Notes under the pieces: generated by a model
What the model saw: only the letters and a program-made list of their open reading frames with translations
The model's database searches: none
Told to the model about the DNA's origin: nothing
Assembly: GCA_029780695.1 (NCBI GenBank)
Contig: JAKOYD010000012.1
Span: 1-64,000 of the forward strand
Direction of reading: 5' to 3'
Length of the DNA stretch: 64,000 bases
Source of the DNA: Pseudomonadota bacterium
Lineage (GTDB): Bacteria > Pseudomonadota > Gammaproteobacteria > Burkholderiales > Burkholderiaceae_C
In this document: piece by piece, positions 38,140 to 46,563 of the stretch
How positions within the stretch are numbered: position 1 is the stretch's first letter
How the letters are laid out: every line of letters begins with the position of its first letter
Made by a program: the position numbers and the translations under genes

Positions 38140-38919
38140 CTACTCGTAGCGCGGCGTCTGCTTGGCCAGGAAGGCGTTGATGCCGATGCCGCCGTTGGGG
38201 TGGTGCAGGTTTTTCACGAAGTGGTCGCGCTCGGCCGCCAGGTGCTGGGGCAGGGTGTGCGCGGTGGCATCGCCCACCAGCTCCTTGATGCTGGTCAGCA
38301 CGTTGGGCGCGCGCGCGCCCAGCTTGTCGGCCCACTGCAGCGCCGTGCCCAGTGCCTGGCCGGCATCGCACAGGCGGTTGACCACGCCCAGCTCGTGCAG
38401 CCGCTGCGCGCCGATGCGTTCGCCGCCCATCAGCAGCTCGTTCACCAGCTGGCGCGGCAGCAGGTGCGACAGGCTCCAGCTGCCGCCGCCGTCGGGCGAC
38501 AGCGCGACGCTGCTGTAGGCCATGACGAACACCGCGTTGCGCGCCGCCACGATCAGGTCGCACGCCAGCGCCAGCGAAAAGCCCGCGCCGGCCGCCGGCC
38601 CTTCGACGGCCGCGATGATGGGCTTGGGAAAGGCGCGGATGGCCTCGACCCAGCTGTGCAGTTGCTCGATGCTCTGCGCCTGTACCTGCGGCGGCTTCTG
38701 GCGGTTGGCCAGCAGGCGCTGCAGGTTGCCGCCGGCGCAGAAGGTGTCGCCTTCGCCGGTCAGCACCACGCAGCGCACGTCGGGGTTGGTCTCGGCGACG
38801 TTCAGCGCCTCGACGCCAGCGGCGTACATCTCGGGGCCGAGCGCGTTGCGATGCTCGGGGTTGCTGATGGTCAGCACCATGGTGCTGCCTTCGAAGGTGC
38901 TGCGCAGTTCGGCGGCCAT
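38140..38919 (-). CDS. Enoyl-CoA hydratase/isomerase family protein
   Basis: The 259-aa crotonase-fold protein has GEGDTFCAGGNLQRLL (near 55), the oxyanion region AAVEGPAAGAGFSLALACDL (near 103) and SPDGGGSWSLSHLLPRQLVN (near 140). A general hydratase of beta-oxidation is likely, but crotonases have many activities. It is 13 bases downstream of the small gene at 38933 and belongs to the acyl-CoA catabolic cluster. Confidence 0.9.
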   Translation of the reverse strand: MAAELRSTFEGSTMVLTISNPEHRNALGPEMYAAGVEALNVAETNPDVRCVVLTGEGDTFCAGGNLQRLLANRQKPPQVQAQSIEQLHSWVEAIRAFPKPIIAAVEGPAAGAGFSLALACDLIVAARNAVFVMAYSSVALSPDGGGSWSLSHLLPRQLVNELLMGGERIGAQRLHELGVVNRLCDAGQALGTALQWADKLGARAPNVLTSIKELVGDATAHTLPQHLAAERDHFVKNLHHPNGGIGINAFLAKQTPRYE

Positions 38920-38932
38920 GGGCAGTGACGGC

Positions 38933-39199
38933 TTATTCGGGGGTGGAGGGATCGCCATCGGCGCCGGGGTCGGCCGCGGCCTGGCGGGCCAGTTCTTCGT
39001 CGCTGAGCGGCGGCAGCTGCTCCAGTGCCTGCAGCTCGCGCAGCTCGTCGGCGCTGCGCCCGGTTTGTTCGAGCACGACGCGATCAATCTCGGCCTGCAG
39101 CAGGGCATTGGGGTCGGCGATGATGCCCTGGGGCACTGCCGCGGGCGGCTGGCCGGAGCCTGCGAGGGGGTTGAAGTCACCGTCTTGGGGTGTGATCAT
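38933..39199 (-). CDS. Small acidic protein of unknown function
   Basis: This 88-aa protein (MITPQDGDFNPLAGSGQPPA at the start) is acidic and proline/alanine-rich, with a likely helix from about 34 to 62 (LLQAEIDRVVLEQTGRSADE). It has no signal peptide, membrane segment or domain I recognise. A good AGGAG site precedes its ATG, and it is spaced 13 bases from the enoyl-CoA hydratase gene, so it is probably real and cotranscribed. Confidence 0.65.
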   Translation of the reverse strand: MITPQDGDFNPLAGSGQPPAAVPQGIIADPNALLQAEIDRVVLEQTGRSADELRELQALEQLPPLSDEELARQAAADPGADGDPSTPE

Positions 39200-39385: not shown

Positions 39386-40909
39386 TCATTCTTCTTCATG
39401 CATCAGGCTCAGGCCGATGGCGCCGCGCCGGCGCAGCCACGGGCTGGGGCGATAGCGCGGGTCGCCATAGACGGTTTGCATGTTGAACAGCACTTCGAGA
39501 ATGTTGGCCGGGCCATAGCGGTCGCCCATGGCCAGCGGCCCCAGCGGGTAGCCCAGGCCCAGGGTGACGGCGGTTTCCAGGTCCTGCGGGCTGCACACGC
39601 GCTGCTGGCACATGTCGGCCGCGATGTTGACGATGGTGGCCACCACGCGCTGCGTGACGAAGCCGCCCGAATCGCGGATCACGCTGACGGCCTTGCCATC
39701 GCGCGCGAACAGCGCGTGCGCGGCATCGCGCATGTCGCTGCGCGTGGCCGGGTTGGTGGCCAGCACGCGGCGCTTGGTGGCGGCGTCGTCCACCAGCATG
39801 TCGATGCCGACGGTGCGCGCCGGGTCCAGCCGCTCGACGACGGCGACGGTGGTGACGTCGAAGCCCAGCGGCGCCACCAGCGTCAGCGCCTGCGGCGACG
39901 GCGACTGGCCGGTCTCGATCTTCGCGCCCAGATCCTTCAGCAACTGGTACAGCTCGGCGCGACGCGCGGCGCGGGTCGACACCCAAACGGGCGGCATTTC
40001 ATCCACCTGTGTCACCGGCGGTTCGGGCGCGATCTGCGCGGCGCCGCCTGCGTATTTGTAGAAGCCGTCGCCCACCTTCTTGCCCACCACGCCGCCGGCC
40101 AGGCGCTGCGCGGTGATCACGCTCGGGCGGTAGCGCGGCTCGTCGTAGTACTGGCGGTAGATGGATTCCATCACCGGGTGCGAGACGTCCAGCGCGGTCA
40201 GGTCCATCAGCTCGAACGGGCCCAGTTTAAAGCCCACCTGGTCCTTCAGAATGCGGTCGATGGTGGCGAAATCGGCCACGCCCTCGCTGACGATGCGCAG
40301 CGCCTCGGTGCCGTAGCCACGACCGGCGTGGTTGACGATGAAGCCCGGCGTGTCTTCGGCCTGCACCGGCGTGTGGCCCATCTGGCGTGCGTAGCCGGCC
40401 AGGCGTTGGCACACGGCGGCGTCGGTCTTCAGGCCGGCGATGACCTCGACCACCTTCATCAGTGGCACCGGGTTGAAGAAGTGGTAGCCCGCGAACTGCG
40501 CCGGGCGCTGCAGTGCCGCGGCAATCGCCGTCACCGACAGCGACGAGGTGTTGGTGGCCAGCACGGCGCCGGGTTGGACGATGCCCTCCAGCTCGGCAAA
40601 CAGGCTTTTCTTCACGTCCAGACGCTCGACGATGGCCTCGACCACCAGATCGCACCCGGCCAGATCGGCCAGCGCGGCGGCAGGTTGCAGGCGTTGCTTG
40701 TGCGCGGCAGCGGTGTCGGCGGTCAGGCGGCCTTTTTCGACCAGCTTGTCCCACTGGGCGCCCAGCGCATCGCGCGCCTTGGCGACCGCTTCGGCCTGGG
40801 TGTCGAACAGCAGCACGGTGCTGCCGGCCTGCGCGGCGATCTGGGCAATGCCCCGGCCCATGGCGCCGGTGCCGACGATGCCGACGGTGGAAAAAAGAGG
40901 TGCAGTCAT
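39386..40909 (-). CDS. 3-hydroxyacyl-CoA dehydrogenase (PaaH-type)
   Basis: The 507-aa protein oxidises 3-hydroxyacyl-CoA with NAD. It has the N-terminal Rossmann motif GIVGTGAMGRGIAQIAAQAG (near 9), the ATNTSSLSVTAIA active region and HFFNPVPLMKVVEVI (near 142). Two C-terminal 3HCDH domains follow, as in PaaH-type enzymes of phenylacetate and general acyl-CoA breakdown. No other phenylacetate genes are near, so a general beta-oxidation role is safer. It is divergent from the ACP operon. Confidence 0.93.
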   Translation of the reverse strand: MTAPLFSTVGIVGTGAMGRGIAQIAAQAGSTVLLFDTQAEAVAKARDALGAQWDKLVEKGRLTADTAAAHKQRLQPAAALADLAGCDLVVEAIVERLDVKKSLFAELEGIVQPGAVLATNTSSLSVTAIAAALQRPAQFAGYHFFNPVPLMKVVEVIAGLKTDAAVCQRLAGYARQMGHTPVQAEDTPGFIVNHAGRGYGTEALRIVSEGVADFATIDRILKDQVGFKLGPFELMDLTALDVSHPVMESIYRQYYDEPRYRPSVITAQRLAGGVVGKKVGDGFYKYAGGAAQIAPEPPVTQVDEMPPVWVSTRAARRAELYQLLKDLGAKIETGQSPSPQALTLVAPLGFDVTTVAVVERLDPARTVGIDMLVDDAATKRRVLATNPATRSDMRDAAHALFARDGKAVSVIRDSGGFVTQRVVATIVNIAADMCQQRVCSPQDLETAVTLGLGYPLGPLAMGDRYGPANILEVLFNMQTVYGDPRYRPSPWLRRRGAIGLSLMHEEE

Positions 40910-41052: not shown

Positions 41053-41078
41053 GATGCATCCTTTATAAAGGATGTATC
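41053..41078. promoter_or_regulatory. 26-bp near-perfect operator upstream of the ACP operon
   Basis: The inverted repeat has half-sites GATGCATCCTTTA and TAAAGGATGTATC, twelve of thirteen positions matching. The central CATCCTTTATAAAGGATG (41057-41074) is perfect. It lies about 110 bases before the ACP start and 18 bases upstream of a TACAAT hexamer, so a bound protein would cover the -35 region. The symmetry resembles MarR/TetR-type sites, but no such regulator is encoded nearby. Confidence 0.65.
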
Positions 41079-41095
41079 AAGTTTTATTTGGATGG

Positions 41096-41101
41096 TACAA
41101 T
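41096..41101 (+). promoter_or_regulatory. Putative -10 element of the ACP-KS-radical SAM operon
   Basis: TACAAT stands in a locally A/T-rich stretch, 86 bases before the ACP start codon. The hexamer 17 bases upstream (TGTATC, 41073) is a poor -35 and is part of the operator. Confidence 0.45.
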
Positions 41102-41187
41102 AACTGCCGGTGGCGGCCAGCCCTTGCGTCACGTGGGGCCGCTTTGTCGCTGCGCCCCTCTTTTTATCCACATCCCGGGACAAGCCG

Positions 41188-41445
41188 ATGACTATCGCTG
41201 TAGCGGACGCGTTGCTCAAGCTGGCGCAGCGCTTTTTCAAGATCGACCCATCGGCCATTTACCCCGACACGCCGTTGAACGCGGTCGGCGATTCGTTGGA
41301 CATGGTGGACTTTCTCTCCGATGTCGAGGCCGAGTTCGGCATCCATATCAGCGACGCTGATCTGGTGGACGCGCGCACCGTGCACGATCTGGCGGCGGTG
41401 GTGGAGCGCCTGTCCGCTCAAAAGCACGCCAAGCCCGCGGCGTAG
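41188..41445 (+). CDS. Acyl carrier protein of a small biosynthetic operon
   Basis: The 85-aa protein is an ACP with the phosphopantetheine serine at position 36 in GDSLDMVDFL. The surrounding DxxF..I pattern is typical, with helix IV near LVDARTVHDLAAVVERL. It differs from the housekeeping AcpP and is the first gene of a four-gene run. It would carry the acyl chain for the ketosynthase that starts six bases after its stop. No phosphopantetheinyl transferase is encoded here, so the host enzyme must activate it. Confidence 0.9.
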   Translation: MTIAVADALLKLAQRFFKIDPSAIYPDTPLNAVGDSLDMVDFLSDVEAEFGIHISDADLVDARTVHDLAAVVERLSAQKHAKPAA

Positions 41446-41450
41446 GGGGC

Positions 41451-42695
41451 GTGGTGACGGCCGCCGCATCCGCGCCGCCGGTGCCAGCAAGGCACGCGGT
41501 CTGGCTGACCGGTTGGGGATTTTGTTCTCCGCTGGGCGGTGACGCGCAGTCGTTCATGGACCAGCTGTTTACCGCGCGCCATGTATTTCAGCGCCTGCAA
41601 AGGCCGCTGGTGCGGCCAGTGCCGGCCGCCATGGTCGACGACCCCGGCCTGACTTCGCGCGCCTGGCCGTCGCACCTGGATCGGATGGGGCAGATGGCGA
41701 TCCTGGCGGCGCAACGCGCCATCCAGAACGCGGGGCTGGCGGGGCAAAGCGAAATCATCGATACCTGTGGCGTCTATCTGGGCAACGGGTGCGGCACCAC
41801 CGAATCCAACCACGATGCGTATGAGCGCCTGTTCGCCACGCAACGCCTGTCGGGGCTGACGTTGCTGCGCTGCCTGCCGTCAGCGGCGGCCAGCGCCGTG
41901 GCCATGGACTTGGCGCTGCACGGCCCCGTGCAGACCTTTACCAACGCCTGTGCGTCTTCCTCGATGGCCTTGGGCGAAGCCATGCGCGCCATTCGGCATG
42001 GGTACGCCACGTGCGTGCTGGCGGGCGGAAGCGAGGCACCATTCGGCGCCGGCACGCTCAAGGCATGGGAAGCCTTGCGCGTGATGGCGCCCGACGACGA
42101 CCCCGACCAAGCGTGCCGTCCCTTTGACGTTTCGCGACAGGGCCTGGTGCTTGGCGAAGGCGCCGTGTTTTTTGTGCTGGAGCAGCAGGATGCCGCGCGG
42201 GCACGGGGCGCCACGCCGCTGGCGGTATTGCAGGGGTATGGCTGCAGCAACGACGCGCACCATTGGACCGAGCCCGACCTTGAAGGCCAGAAGCGCGCCA
42301 TGCGCGCGGCCCTGGACGACGCCGGTTGCCAGGCGCGCGACATCGTGGCCATCAACGCCCACGGCACCGGTACGCCGGTGGGCGACCGGGTGGAAATGAT
42401 GTCCGTGGCCAGCGTGTTCGACGGCTGCGCGGTGCCCATCAGTTCAACCAAGGCGTTGCATGGACATTTGCTGGGTGCGTCGGGCGCGATCGAGCTGGCG
42501 GCCTGCGTGGCAACGCTGCTGCGCGGCCAGGTGCCGCACACGCGAAACCTGCGCACGCCCGAGCCGGCGTCCGCCTCGCTGGACTTGGTGCGCGATGCGC
42601 CGCGCGCCTTGGCGCGCCCCGGGCCGGTGTTGTCCAACTCGTTTGCCTTTGGCGGCATCAATGCCAGCCTGATCGTGGCGCCCGCGCCGTCCTGA
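41451..42695 (+). CDS. Beta-ketoacyl-ACP synthase, stand-alone (FabF-like)
   Basis: The 414-aa condensing enzyme has an intact catalytic triad: Cys 167 in TNACASSSMA, His 304 in INAHGTGTPVGD and His 339 in STKALHGHLLGASG with Lys 334. It would lengthen an ACP-bound acyl chain by decarboxylative condensation. Start codon is GTG (41451, or the next GTG). Unlike fabF in the fatty-acid operon, it is next to an ACP, a radical SAM protein and a hydrolase. There is no ketoreductase, dehydratase or acyltransferase in the run. A dedicated chain-building role is inferred. Confidence 0.9.
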   Translation: MVTAAASAPPVPARHAVWLTGWGFCSPLGGDAQSFMDQLFTARHVFQRLQRPLVRPVPAAMVDDPGLTSRAWPSHLDRMGQMAILAAQRAIQNAGLAGQSEIIDTCGVYLGNGCGTTESNHDAYERLFATQRLSGLTLLRCLPSAAASAVAMDLALHGPVQTFTNACASSSMALGEAMRAIRHGYATCVLAGGSEAPFGAGTLKAWEALRVMAPDDDPDQACRPFDVSRQGLVLGEGAVFFVLEQQDAARARGATPLAVLQGYGCSNDAHHWTEPDLEGQKRAMRAALDDAGCQARDIVAINAHGTGTPVGDRVEMMSVASVFDGCAVPISSTKALHGHLLGASGAIELAACVATLLRGQVPHTRNLRTPEPASASLDLVRDAPRALARPGPVLSNSFAFGGINASLIVAPAPS

Positions 42696-42722
42696 GCGCG
42701 GTGGCGCAAGCATTTGAGCAGC

Positions 42723-44222
42723 ATGAACCCTTCTCGCACCCCCATGAGCCCCGCCGACGTGCTCTCGTTCTTGTCGCGTCACCAAGACCGGCATACGTCC
42801 AACAAGGTGCTGCATGGGCATCCATCGCCGGCGTTCTGGCGCACGGAGGGCGCCGCTGATGCACTTCAGGGCTTGTCAGGGGCGCTGTCGCGGCATCCCG
42901 CCAAGGTGAACCTGTACTTCAGCATTCCGTTTTGCTTGCCGACCGATCCGCCGCATTGCGGCTTTTGCCTTTTCCCGACCGAAGACTATCGTGGCAAGAG
43001 CGCCACGACGCACTATCTGGAACTGATGGCGCGCGAAATCCGTTTGCAGCGCGAGTTGCACCGTGGCAGCCAGCTGGAATCGTTCTACGTCGGTGGCGGT
43101 ACGCCCAACCTGCTGCATCCCAGCGACTATGCGCGCTTGATGGAGCTGGCTGATTCGCTGTTTCCGGGGCAAACGCAGGGCATCGAGAAGACGCTGGAGG
43201 GCATTCCGCAGCTGTTTTCAGAGGACAAGGTGGCCGCCATCAAGGCCGCGGGGTTCAATCGCGTCAGCATGGGGGTTCAGCAATTGAATGAGCGGCTGAT
43301 TCGCTACAGCGGCCGCAAGCAGACCAACCGGCACGTGTTCGACGCCATCGCGTCCTTTGCCAGGCATGAACTGGCCTGCAACGTCGATCTGATCTACGCC
43401 TGGCCCGAGCAGACGGTGCAAGACATGCTGGACGGTTTGCGGGCCGTGGTGGCTTGCGGCATTCGCCACATCACGCATTACGAATTGAATATCGCCGGGC
43501 GCTCGGACTTTGCGCTGCACCAAAGGCAGCACGTGCCGACGATGGCCGGAAAGCTAGAGATGTACCTGCAAGCCAAGGCTTACCTTGAGTCAGAAGGGTT
43601 TGTGCAGCGCACCGTGTACGACTGGGAGCGCGCCGATGCCACCGCGCTGCCCAGCGGCCTGATGGCGTCGGAATACCGCTATGAGCAGAATCTGCGTGAC
43701 GGGCTGGATGCAGACAGTTCGCAGGCGCCGCGCTACATGTGCGGCGTGGGGCACGCGGCCGTCAGCGTGCGCGCCCACCGGCCATCTTCCGGCGTGCCCT
43801 CGGTGTCCAGCATGAACTGGCGTTCGCTCAGCCGCTACGCCGAATCGGTCCAGGCCGATGGCCTGCCGGTGGAAAGATTCCATGTGCACACCGAAGAGGA
43901 CGTGCGTTTGCTGTGGCTTTTTCAGTCGCTGCAGGAGATGGCGGTGGATCTCGACAAATACAGCACGCATTTCGGCAGCGAGTTTGTCGACGACTGCGCC
44001 GGCGTGGTCGACGTTCTGGGCCAGCACGGCTGGGCCAGCGTGCAGGGCCGCTGCTGGCGGCTCAGTGCCGAAGGCGGCTTTTTCGTGCCCTTGATCCAGA
44101 GCTTGCTCGCGCATCCCCGGGTGCTGGCGTTGCAGGCGGCTTCGGCGCAACAGGCGAGCCACCCCACGCACATTCCGATCCGGTCGGCCATCGATACCGG
44201 CGCTTGCAGCCCGACGCGCTGA
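42723..44222 (+). CDS. HemN-like radical SAM protein with noncanonical cluster spacing
   Basis: The 499-aa protein is related to oxygen-independent coproporphyrinogen oxidase/HemW (YVGGGTPNLL near 119; FNRVSMGVQQLNERL; DLIYAWPEQT; YELNIAGRSD). The cluster motif is C71-x7-C79-x2-C82, four residues longer than the C-x3-C-x2-C of HemN. It sits between an ACP/ketosynthase pair and a hydrolase, not with heme genes. HemN-like enzymes outside heme synthesis include cyclopropanases and methyltransferases, so a radical change of an ACP-bound chain is plausible but unproven. A TTG nine bases upstream is an alternative start. Confidence 0.82.
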   Translation: MNPSRTPMSPADVLSFLSRHQDRHTSNKVLHGHPSPAFWRTEGAADALQGLSGALSRHPAKVNLYFSIPFCLPTDPPHCGFCLFPTEDYRGKSATTHYLELMAREIRLQRELHRGSQLESFYVGGGTPNLLHPSDYARLMELADSLFPGQTQGIEKTLEGIPQLFSEDKVAAIKAAGFNRVSMGVQQLNERLIRYSGRKQTNRHVFDAIASFARHELACNVDLIYAWPEQTVQDMLDGLRAVVACGIRHITHYELNIAGRSDFALHQRQHVPTMAGKLEMYLQAKAYLESEGFVQRTVYDWERADATALPSGLMASEYRYEQNLRDGLDADSSQAPRYMCGVGHAAVSVRAHRPSSGVPSVSSMNWRSLSRYAESVQADGLPVERFHVHTEEDVRLLWLFQSLQEMAVDLDKYSTHFGSEFVDDCAGVVDVLGQHGWASVQGRCWRLSAEGGFFVPLIQSLLAHPRVLALQAASAQQASHPTHIPIRSAIDTGACSPTR

Positions 44223-44237
44223 AGTCCGGGGATTGAG

Positions 44238-45098
44238 GTGATTGTTTGCGAGCCGCGGCCGCTGCGTGCGCCAGACGGTGTTGGCCTGGGTTGGTGGCGC
44301 GTGGCGGATGAGGCGCAGCGCGCCGCCGAGCCGCGGCATCTGCTGCTGACCCACGGCACGTTTTCCGACAGGCGCGTTTGCATGACCATGGCGCGCGCCT
44401 GGGCCGAGCAAGGCCATGTGGCGTGGATACTCGAGTGGCGTGGTCATGGCCGCAGCGACCGGGTCGCCGAGCCTTACGACATGGAGACGGTGGCCGAGCG
44501 TGATGTCCCGGCGGCGTTGCATGAGCTGCAGCGCCTCGCTCCGCTCGCGCCGCTGTGCGTTGCCACCCACAGCGGCGGCGGTTTGGCGTTGACGATGGCG
44601 TTGCTGCGCCAGCCCGGGCTGGCCAGCCGTTTGCACAAGGTGGCGTTGTTTGCCTGCCAGGCCTGTGACGCCGCGGGTACGCCGTGGCGCGTGGCGCGTT
44701 TGGCCGCGGCCGCGGCAATCACGCGCGTCTACGGACGCATCCCGGCGCGACCTCTGCGTCTGGGCGTCCAGGACGAATCGCACGCCATGATGGGCCCCTG
44801 GTTTCGCTGGAATCTCACGCGGTCTTTTCGGGGCCGAGATGGGTTCGACTACGGGGCGCGGCAGCGCGATATCGTCGTGCCGGTCATGGCCATTGCGGCG
44901 CAGGCCGACCACTTCATTGCCCCGGCGGGCGCCTGCCACCGGTTCTGGAGCCGGTTTGGCGCTCCGGCACAGGGCCAGTTTCTGGTGTGTGGCCCATCGA
45001 CCGGGTACGCGCAGGCCTACGGCCACGCCACCATCATGCATTCACCGCAAGCGGCGCAGGAGGTGCTGCCGGGGGTCATCGCCTGGCTGCTGCAATAG
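44238..45098 (+). CDS. Alpha/beta hydrolase, candidate release thioesterase/esterase
   Basis: The 286-aa alpha/beta hydrolase has the oxyanion-region HGTFSDRRVC (39-48), a nucleophile elbow with Ser 112 in ATHSGGGLAL (first glycine of GxSxG replaced by Thr) and a late acid/histidine pair in AAQADHFIAP and YGHATIM. Start codon GTG is 15 bases after the radical SAM gene. In this operon it could release or transfer the finished acyl chain from the ACP, but an ordinary lipase/esterase is possible. Confidence 0.85.
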   Translation: MIVCEPRPLRAPDGVGLGWWRVADEAQRAAEPRHLLLTHGTFSDRRVCMTMARAWAEQGHVAWILEWRGHGRSDRVAEPYDMETVAERDVPAALHELQRLAPLAPLCVATHSGGGLALTMALLRQPGLASRLHKVALFACQACDAAGTPWRVARLAAAAAITRVYGRIPARPLRLGVQDESHAMMGPWFRWNLTRSFRGRDGFDYGARQRDIVVPVMAIAAQADHFIAPAGACHRFWSRFGAPAQGQFLVCGPSTGYAQAYGHATIMHSPQAAQEVLPGVIAWLLQ

Positions 45099-45164: not shown

Positions 45165-46170
45165 TTAGCGTCGCACCTGCAGCGCGCCTGGATTGACGAT
45201 GTTGGTCGGCGTGCCGCGCAGGTAGTTGATGACGTTGTCGAACGCGGCGCCGAAATACAGCTCGTAGCTGTCCTGTTCGACGTAGCCGATGTGCGGCGTG
45301 CAGATGCAGTTTTCGAGCCGCAACAGCGCGTGACCCTGCAGGATGGGCTCGGTCTCGAACACGTCCACCGCGCCCATGCCGGGCCGGCCGCGGTTGAGCG
45401 CGCTGACCAGCGCGTCGGGCTCGATCAGTTCGGCGCGCGAGGTGTTGACCAGCAGCGCCGTCGGCTTCATGCGGCTGAGGTCTTCCAGACGCACGATGCC
45501 GCGCGTGCTGTCTGACAGGCGCAGGTGCAACGAAAGCACGTCGGCCATGGCAAAAAAATCGGCCTGGCTGTGCGCCGTGGCCAGGCCGTCGGCGCGCGCG
45601 CGCCAGCGATTCGGGCGAGCCCCACACCATCACCTGCATGCCGAACGCGCGGCCGTAGCCAGCCACCAGCCGGCCAATGCGGCCGTAGCCCCAAATGCCC
45701 AGCGTGCGCCCATGCAGGACCGTGCCCAGGCCGAAATTGGGCGGCATCGACGCCGACTTCAGCCCCGACTGCTGCCAGGCGCCGTGCTTCAGGTTGCCCA
45801 CGTACTGGGGCAGCCGGCGCGCCGCCGCCATGATGAGCGCCCACGTCAATTCGGCCGGCGCGACCGGCGAACCCACGCCCTCGGCCACGGCGATGCCGCG
45901 CTCGGTGCAGGCCGCGACATCAAGGTGCGCGCCGACGCGCCCGGTCTGCGCAATCATCTTCAGCCGTGGCAGCTTTTCGATCAGCGCGCGCGTGATCTGC
46001 GTGCGTTCGCGGATCAGCACGATCACTTCGGCATCGCGCAACCGTACCGACAGCTGGCCCAGACCCTTGACCGTGTTGGTGTAGACCTTGGCCGGATAGG
46101 GCTCGAGCTTGGACGCGCACGCCAGCTTGCGAACGGCGTCCTGATAGTCGTCGAGGATCACGATATTCAT
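45165..46170 (-). pseudogene. D-2-hydroxyacid dehydrogenase, frameshifted
   Basis: Two reading frames together make one complete dehydrogenase. The N-terminal part, from MNIVILDDYQDAVRKLA (ATG at 46168-46170), contains the NAD motif GIWGYGRIGRLVAG. The C-terminal part (from about 45590 to 45165) has VNTSRAELI, DVFETEP and the catalytic TPHIGYVE. The frame is lost at a (GC)6 run, 45592-45603; loss of two bases or gain of one would restore it. The spliced protein would be about 335 aa. It could be a real pseudogene, a slippage-prone switch, or a sequencing error. It is convergent with the hydrolase of the ACP operon. Confidence 0.85.
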
Positions 46171-46563
46171 GCACCGCATTGTGCCCGTGGGCAAGGCGGC
46201 TGAGCGGCGCCGGTGATCGGAGCGTGCAAGGGGTGAGGCGGCTGCCCGCCACGCGGCGCGCACGGTGCACGACCGGCAGGCCAACGCGCCTACCGGCTTA
46301 TTGGTATGAAATTGATAGCTAAGTACGCTTGTCTGGTGGGCGCTGGCGGCATGAAAAGCGATCAAATTTTTTTGGGATGGAGGCGTTGCCCGGCATGCGG
46401 GCGCGCGCGGGCGTTGCCCGGGCGGTGCCACACGGGTCGGGCGCGCCCATGCCATGCGCAGCGGGCAACGGGTGAACCTCGCGCCGCGCCCCGCCGCCAT
46501 CGGGCTGCTGGCGGTGGCGACGCCGTTGTTGCAACGCTCGCGCTGCGCACGCAGGCCGGTCGA
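46171..46563. other. Intergenic region with one dispersed repeat
   Basis: The 393 bases between the dehydrogenase start and the orphan gene contain a degenerate AGCTAT-family copy (about 46303-46374). The rest is GC-rich sequence with inverted GC-rich segments (near 46380-46470) and no supported gene. Confidence 0.5.
46303..46374. repeat. AGCTAT-family dispersed repeat
   Basis: GAAATTGATAGCTAAGTACG, then CTTGTCTGGTGGGCGCTGGC and GGCATGAAAAGCGATCAAAT, has the common order ATTGATAGCT, GCTTGTC, GGGCGCTGG, A/T-rich end. It lies alone in an intergenic gap. Confidence 0.7.

Follow-up and report, generated by a model that had tools for sequence, protein, structure and literature searches.

According to the introduction of PMC13389473, only type I iterative polyketide synthase (iPKS) pathways give chains bearing more than two cyclopropane rings; among these, the pathways of Streptomyces albireticuli NRRL B-1670 (pfl) and S. 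longispororuber (log) have been characterized. Section 7 of that work calls the Cx7CxxC motif invariant in the cyclopropanases (CPs) of polycyclopropanating iPKSs and describes the jaw pathway as lacking a homologous thioesterase (TE) gene; in the model of section 17, ketosynthase (KS), CP and TE compete over one intermediate bound to the acyl carrier protein (ACP); and the discussion presents the purification of subunits and an in vitro platform as goals yet to be reached. Here, we analyze a four-gene operon in a 64,000-nucleotide stretch of DNA (hereafter, the window; positions 1 to 64,000 of contig JAKOYD010000012.1, assembly GCA_029780695.1) from a Pseudomonadota bacterium of the Burkholderiaceae_C. 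The operon probably encodes a dissociated, type II cyclopropanating acyl synthase, a counterpart of the polycyclopropanating iPKSs, that would yield a (poly)cyclopropanated fatty acid. The family of radical S-adenosylmethionine (SAM) cyclopropanases is known; what appears to differ here is the separate carrier protein, the separate chain extender and another kind of release enzyme.

The operon and its radical SAM protein

The operon consists of four plus-strand genes for an ACP, a KS, a radical SAM protein (P0003) and an alpha/beta hydrolase (Table 1), separated by 5, 18 and 15 bases. An earlier note on this DNA had described four consecutive genes with short gaps, with the ACP serine and the KS catalytic residues intact, and so they proved, except that position 41,053, given there as the start, is where a palindrome begins, 5' of the ACP gene. 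Pfam matches above cut-off in the four proteins were the expected ones: PP-binding, the N- and C-terminal ketoacyl-synt domains, Radical_SAM, Hydrolase_4 and Abhydrolase_1. The start of the ACP is backed by alignment with a relative from the same genus, G590; the CP gene starts with TTG, and an ATG lies 9 bases further in.

G590, a single-contig genome, has counterparts of all four genes at the corresponding site (locus L075), all intact, with 77-82% amino acid identity to the window proteins across all four. The dN/dS ratios between the two operons, calculated with a Nei-Gojobori script, are 0.18 for the ACP, 0.24 for the KS and 0.17 for both the CP and the hydrolase. All four genes are thus real and under purifying selection, and because the same array occurs in a single-contig genome, it is no assembly chimera; the window's own assembly (G000) comprises 180 contigs and is 83.8% complete and 6.5% contaminated.

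The radical SAM step had previously been taken as undescribed, with a hint at cyclopropanation. The hint fits better than the novelty: as judged from sequence, the protein belongs to the family of the polyketide cyclopropanases Jaw5, Pfl2 and Log2 (PMC13389473) and not to the heme enzymes. The cluster cysteines are arranged as C74-x7-C82-xx-C85, and Cx7CxxC was found in 67 of the 69 distinct loci that we compared, the window included; the motif is missing in L066, where the contig begins within the gene, and in a distant outlier, L072. P0003 shares 36% identity over 475 aa with the CP of S. albireticuli NRRL B-1670 (L052) and 39% over 467 aa with that of S. longispororuber (L043). These two are taken as Pfl2 and Log2, respectively, from strain name, gene order and motif, the Log2 assignment resting on the species name only (L043 is from strain JCM 4784). 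An EGIPQLF block is common to the window CP and the characterized CPs, in part as a product of the retrieval patterns described below. In total length, 502 aa for the window CP compare with 457 aa, the extra length not being assigned to one end; residues 484-502 are poorly modelled.

A 67-row tree places 64 CPs in a single clade (support 96/97), to the exclusion of the window genome's own HemN- and HemW-type proteins and of the Prevotella outlier L072; the outgroup branches are long, and the root inside the family is unresolved. Cut or broken sequences (L066, L070, L071 and L012) and duplicates (L007 of L016, L076 of L010) were excluded from this tree.

The fold and the nearest NCBIfam models could also suggest a heme-related HemN or HemW enzyme with chance neighbors: the best Foldseek match of the AlphaFold model (pLDDT 85.2) is HemN 1olt (TM 0.70/0.80). 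P0003, however, met none of the NCBIfam models, the nearest four reaching 34-54% of their curated cut-offs (STM4012, 161.6 of 380 bits; HutW, 150.5 of 400; HemW, 110.5 of 205.4; HemN, 109.5 of 324.95). The CPs of L052 and L043 miss the heme-family cut-offs just as P0003 does, whereas the HemW- and HemN-type proteins of the same genome, used as a positive control, exceed those for HemW and HemN. These control proteins have Cx3CxxC, the motif of the HemN coproporphyrinogen dehydrogenase, so that the cluster spacing differs as well. As far as sequence allows, we reject a heme enzyme, a reading that is now hardly credible.

A subtler alternative is a HemN-like methylene or methyl transferase that performs other chemistry, such as C-methylation, on the ACP-bound chain. 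The window CP falls outside the subclade containing the characterized CPs, and, according to PMC6050322, the methylene-transfer step is common to the class C HemN-like proteins TbtI, NosN and ChuW. Given that Cx7CxxC and EGIPQLF are common to the characterized CPs, against Cx3CxxC in the HemN/HemW types of the same genome, we regard such chemistry as improbable.

Two lineages of cyclopropanase loci

In the contig scan for CP homologs, P0003 alone matched nothing, and members were recovered with an alignment, A1. Its patterns, HCG[FY]CLFP and LEGIPQLF, condition the sample: members without both octapeptides were missed, and conservation of the patterned residues carries no independent weight; the seven-residue spacing is free of this conditioning. 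Members in Deinococcus and in three genomes of the same family as the window (G133, G590 and G680) were retrieved by BLAST-type searches instead. The 69 distinct loci comprise 37 of lineage A, including the window, 31 of lineage B and the outlier L072, which lacks the motif.

Lineage B occurs mostly in Streptomyces and relatives, Lentzea, Nocardia, Chloroflexota, a planctomycete and Deinococcus, in the company of polyketide synthase (PKS) and nonribosomal peptide synthetase (NRPS) genes. The KS profile gave a match in 27 of the 31 loci; the misses are L005 and L006, which have an annotated type I PKS and a ketoacyl-ACP synthase III nearby, and L057 and L061, in which a PKS-family gene is cut by the contig end. 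Domains were read in representatives only: L041 has KS-acyltransferase (AT)-dehydratase (DH)-ACP, a hotdog thioesterase and MMPL; L047 has C-A-PCP-reductase; and L046 has a short-chain dehydrogenase/ketoreductase (SDR/KR). The search for the hydrolase in lineage B gave nothing above 43 bits, with three weak matches at 25-43 bits. On the Deinococcus plasmids (L005 and L006), the CP lies beside the ketoacyl-ACP synthase III and an ACP inside PKS/NRPS clusters. Outside Streptomyces, a PKS-family gene, the CP and an NRPS-family gene share one strand in eight Chloroflexota loci (L047, L050, L056, L057, L059, L061, L063 and L064) and in the planctomycete locus L039, the C-A-PCP-reductase domains having been read in L047 only.

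In lineage A, one alpha/beta-hydrolase family accompanies the CP in 36 of 37 loci: 32 of 33 placed by the tree and all four assigned by context (L012, L066, L070 and L071). The miss, L038, is a 4.7-kb contig ending soon after the ACP gene. In all five loci titled Methylomirabilota or Methylomirabilis (L032, L034, L035, L036 and L067), CP and hydrolase are fused in a protein of 815-876 aa. The pair is spread over Pseudomonadota, Bacteroidota, Myxococcota and Methylomirabilota, and the exact order ACP-KS-CP-hydrolase occurs only in the window and G590 among the 69 loci. A KS or ACP was found near the CP in 5 of 37 lineage A loci (the window, G590, L013, L037 and L038), a lower bound, several contigs being short. 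The four-gene set, proposed in the earlier note as the natural unit, was therefore rejected as a conserved core; on this comparison of gene sets, the conserved unit is CP plus hydrolase. Apparent CP fusions in the long open reading frames of L044 and L051 were also rejected, as no second Pfam domain was found, and are treated as open-frame read-through, as is a 795-aa frame in L010.

Of the loci with these companions, Aquimarina L013 has a multidomain PKS near the CP; the Labilithrix metagenome-assembled genome (L037) has a discrete ACP-KS pair about 4-5 kb from the CP, a second KS, and a phosphopantetheinyl transferase (PPTase) after the hydrolase; and Rokubacteria L038 has the order enoyl-CoA hydratase-CP-KS-ACP, with the KS and ACP directly 3' of the CP. 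Rows of the KS profile include the window, L075, L037, L038, L041 and L013, and rows of the ACP profile the window, L075, L037, L038, L005 and L006, so that these loci match by construction; independent Pfam or phmmer support exists for the profile matches, that for the L037 ACP being weak (phmmer with the window ACP, E 0.0025). By score, the window KS is not FabF (primary KASII), reaching 313.5 bits against TIGR03150 fabF, below the cut-off of 493.75. A small KS tree separates the KS of the window and G590 from those of L037 and L038, which group, with moderate support (88/92), with the window genome's two other KS. This topology suggests that KS and ACP were likely, if not provably, recruited separately and more than once.

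These data bear on a further reading, which overlaps with the favored one: CP plus hydrolase could be the functional unit, acting on acyl-ACP of primary fatty acid synthesis or on a lipid, with the ACP and KS as supply accessories and a mono-cyclopropane medium-chain fatty acid as the product. The near-constant presence of the hydrolase in lineage A, its fusion to the CP in five loci, the scarcity of KS and ACP and their apparently separate recruitment all speak for it. For the window and G590, where all four genes lie together on one strand, at a shared site and under purifying selection, we consider it a possibility of limited likelihood.

Several lineage A loci have recurrent neighbors. Upstream of CP plus hydrolase in all 16 of the loci L017-L031 and L033 (Granulosicoccaceae plus a single Chromatiales) is a gene of one family on the same strand, 100-441 bases away in 15 of them and roughly 1.3 kb away in L022; in L028 it is a contig-edge stub only, and L066, which begins inside the CP, could not be assessed. 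All four upstream genes scanned with Pfam (L018, L019, L021 and L030) encode GGDEF-EAL proteins, and a link of CP plus hydrolase to c-di-GMP signalling in this set is possible. In Acinetobacter (L008, L009, L011 and L012), a chemosensory, Pil-Chp-like operon is followed by CP plus hydrolase; Pfam identified a CheA-like Hpt/CheW/receiver protein in two of them (L008 and L009) and a methyl-accepting chemotaxis protein (MCP) in L008, the remainder being assigned by similarity. The CP genes of L012, L070 and L071 are interrupted or partly deleted, through decay or assembly errors, with the hydrolase still recognizable.

Predicted pathway and genomic setting of the operon

In the favored reading, the holo-ACP would carry a short chain made with host fatty acid enzymes, and the dedicated KS would lengthen it. 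The CP would then move a SAM-derived methylene (CH2) across the double bond of the 2-enoyl-ACP ahead of the host enoyl reductase, which it would need to outpace; more rounds may add further rings, and the alpha/beta hydrolase would end the chain by thioester hydrolysis, releasing the (poly)cyclopropanated fatty acid. For malonyl loading, ketoreduction, dehydration and activation of the ACP, the operon would depend on the host. Elsewhere, the host genome has one AT-domain match, two FabA/Z matches, the two other KS and three PPTase-family matches, one of them barely above cut-off. The general scheme of the earlier note, in which an acyl chain on the ACP undergoes a radical modification before its release, with reliance on host enzymes, is consistent with these observations.

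A role of the hydrolase in chain release is favored by its fusion to the CP in some loci and by the lack of any other release enzyme in the operon. All 23 aligned members share Ser112, Asp224 and His263, which probably form the catalytic triad. The structure model (pLDDT 95) is similar to monoacylglycerol lipases and esterases, and such enzymes are the best solved relatives by sequence and by fold (among the best 60 and best 50 rows); a polyketide synthase domain, 3qit, is one among the best 60. Thioesterases, too, are among the alpha/beta-fold enzymes. A less likely alternative to a chain-release thioesterase is an esterase, lactonase or acyltransferase that works on the product after release; it is favored by these relatives and by the occurrence of the hydrolase without a CP and countered by the fusion and the gene content just mentioned. 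The hydrolase is present in 8 of 399 genomes of the family, with a CP in G000, G590, G133 and G680 and without one in G580, G602, G661 and G532 (a weaker match). No CP, KS or ACP match was found in the 14 kb around the latter four hydrolases, and a family-wide CP search that covered these genomes found CPs in four other genomes only. At an lpxC-side site, G580 has the hydrolase alone (L117), and G133, of the same genus, has CP plus hydrolase (L007).

Several of these observations weigh against a dissociated cyclopropanating synthase. The operon has no KR, DH or AT, and the characterized pathways are iPKSs with AT and DH, plus KR; 32 of 37 lineage A loci lack a KS or ACP in the 3.6-22 kb of DNA per locus; and the CP-hydrolase pair may act on ordinary fatty acid synthesis intermediates or on something else. 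Furthermore, the nearest solved relatives of the hydrolase are lipases and esterases, half of the family genomes with the hydrolase lack a CP, and the CP, given its place in the tree, may have drifted in function. A bolder extension, to which we assign little weight, is that CP plus hydrolase, in some cases a single fused protein and lying 3' of the GGDEF-EAL-family gene in Granulosicoccaceae and of the chemosensory operon in Acinetobacter, is a portable synthase tapping primary fatty acid synthesis for a diffusible cyclopropane fatty acid signal or modulator, to which the genus of the window added an ACP and a KS, creating a dissociated polycyclopropane synthase.

Table 1. Features of the operon and its surroundings (window coordinates)
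Feature	Position	Strand	Details
Enoyl-CoA hydratase	38140-39180	opposite strand to operon	close to operon
3-Hydroxyacyl-CoA dehydrogenase	39386-40909	opposite strand to operon	adjoins operon
Palindrome, 11 pairs, 4-base loop (terminator scan scoring)	41053..41078		directly 5' of TACAAT -10-like box; possible operator
Acyl carrier protein (ACP), 85 aa	41188..41445	+	ATG start; Ser36 phosphopantetheine site; PF00550, 1.5e-11
FabF-like beta-ketoacyl-ACP synthase (KS), 414 aa	41451..42695	+	Cys167-His304-His339 intact; PF00109/PF02801
Predicted radical SAM cyclopropanase (CP; P0003), Jaw5/Pfl2/Log2 family, 502 aa	42714..44222	+	cluster Cys 74/82/85 (Cx7CxxC)
Alpha/beta hydrolase, 286 aa, dedicated	44238..45098	+	Ser112, Asp224, His263; probable chain-release thioesterase
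D-2-hydroxyacid dehydrogenase, split across two frames	45165-46500	-	both halves match Pfam 2-Hacid_dh models

The operon had also been thought to lie apart from fatty acid genes, but a 3-hydroxyacyl-CoA dehydrogenase and an enoyl-CoA hydratase gene adjoin it on the other strand, followed by an acyl-CoA dehydrogenase gene; these look like degradation-type rather than synthesis-type genes. On the other side is the D-2-hydroxyacid dehydrogenase gene, whose counterpart in G590 is a single 381-aa frame and whose halves share one frame in L078 and L080; the split in the window reflects either an assembly error or recent damage. A second copy of the 3-hydroxyacyl-CoA dehydrogenase, 89% identical, occurs at G000:C94:12866-14383 and possibly represents a second strain in the bin.

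The 3-hydroxyacyl-CoA dehydrogenase is present in 23 of 29 genomes of the genus, and DNA was obtained for 20 places (L077-L096). In 13 of these, the two dehydrogenase genes are adjacent, without a KS or hydrolase match, spaced by 19-310 bases in 12 and by 929 in L085; in two, the window's genome and G590, the operon occupies the site between them; and in five (L084, L089, L093, L094 and L096), the second flank is not shown. This pattern is most simply read as gain of the operon as a block, with repeated loss as the alternative. CP homologs are rare among related genomes, with the window's own counted: 2 of 29 in the genus, 4 of 399 in the family, 2 of 300 in the order and, at a stricter limit, 1 of 369 in the class. 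A phage or plasmid origin was rejected: the sole plasmid matches (E up to 1e-30) are the two Deinococcus PKS/NRPS loci, and of the 36 phage-record matches, the 20 listed are 24-33% identical and HemN/HemW-like where annotated.

Upstream of the operon, the promoter scan found no sigma-70 consensus promoter. The palindrome showed no conservation when looked for in G590, so that the evidence for an operator is weak; the pattern was picked after inspection, and its chance expectation is no test.

Comparison with known systems

Neither a dissociated ACP/KS version nor a CP-hydrolase unit of a radical SAM cyclopropanase appears in the titles and abstract openings of the literature retrieved. A signal or weapon role of the product is plausible by analogy, as cyclopropyl fatty acids of other origin are described in PMC6213206 as antimicrobial or as blocking quorum sensing; this likeness is no evidence for the operon. 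The distribution of CP plus hydrolase points to a class of cyclopropyl lipids. Polycyclopropane chains are pursued as dense fuels, and a small dissociated system of ACP, KS, CP and hydrolase should be simpler to reconstitute and would test the compatibility of a radical cyclopropanase with ordinary fatty acid enzymes.

Among known systems, HemN, HemW, HutW and STM4012 share the fold and the radical SAM core with the window CP and differ in the low scores of the latter and, for the HemN and HemW types of the same genome, in cluster spacing. Cyclopropane fatty acid synthase (CFAS), a non-radical methyltransferase, is similar in having cyclopropane fatty acids as its product; the Pfam scan detected no CFAS domain in the four operon proteins. 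CFAS differs in its substrate, unsaturated fatty acids (PMC6213206). C10P/C10Q of the CC-1065 pathway likewise produce a cyclopropane by HemN-like methylene transfer but work with a partner methyltransferase and target a pyrrole ring, according to PMC6050322 and PMC10491745. The closest likeness in the proposed logic is to the Pfl (fuelimycin), Jaw (jawsamycin) and Log iPKSs, which have a homologous Cx7CxxC CP, an ACP-bound chain, and a KS, CP and release enzyme in competition. In these systems, a single iPKS protein comprises KS-AT-DH-ACP, the KR is a separate protein, and Pfl has a hotdog-fold TE (PMC13389473). Of these features of the POP-iPKS loci, the window has no KS-AT-DH-ACP protein beside the CP, only a separate ACP and KS; no KR as a protein of its own next to the CP in the operon, the dehydrogenases on either side being of other families; and no hotdog-fold TE, its predicted release enzyme being the alpha/beta hydrolase.

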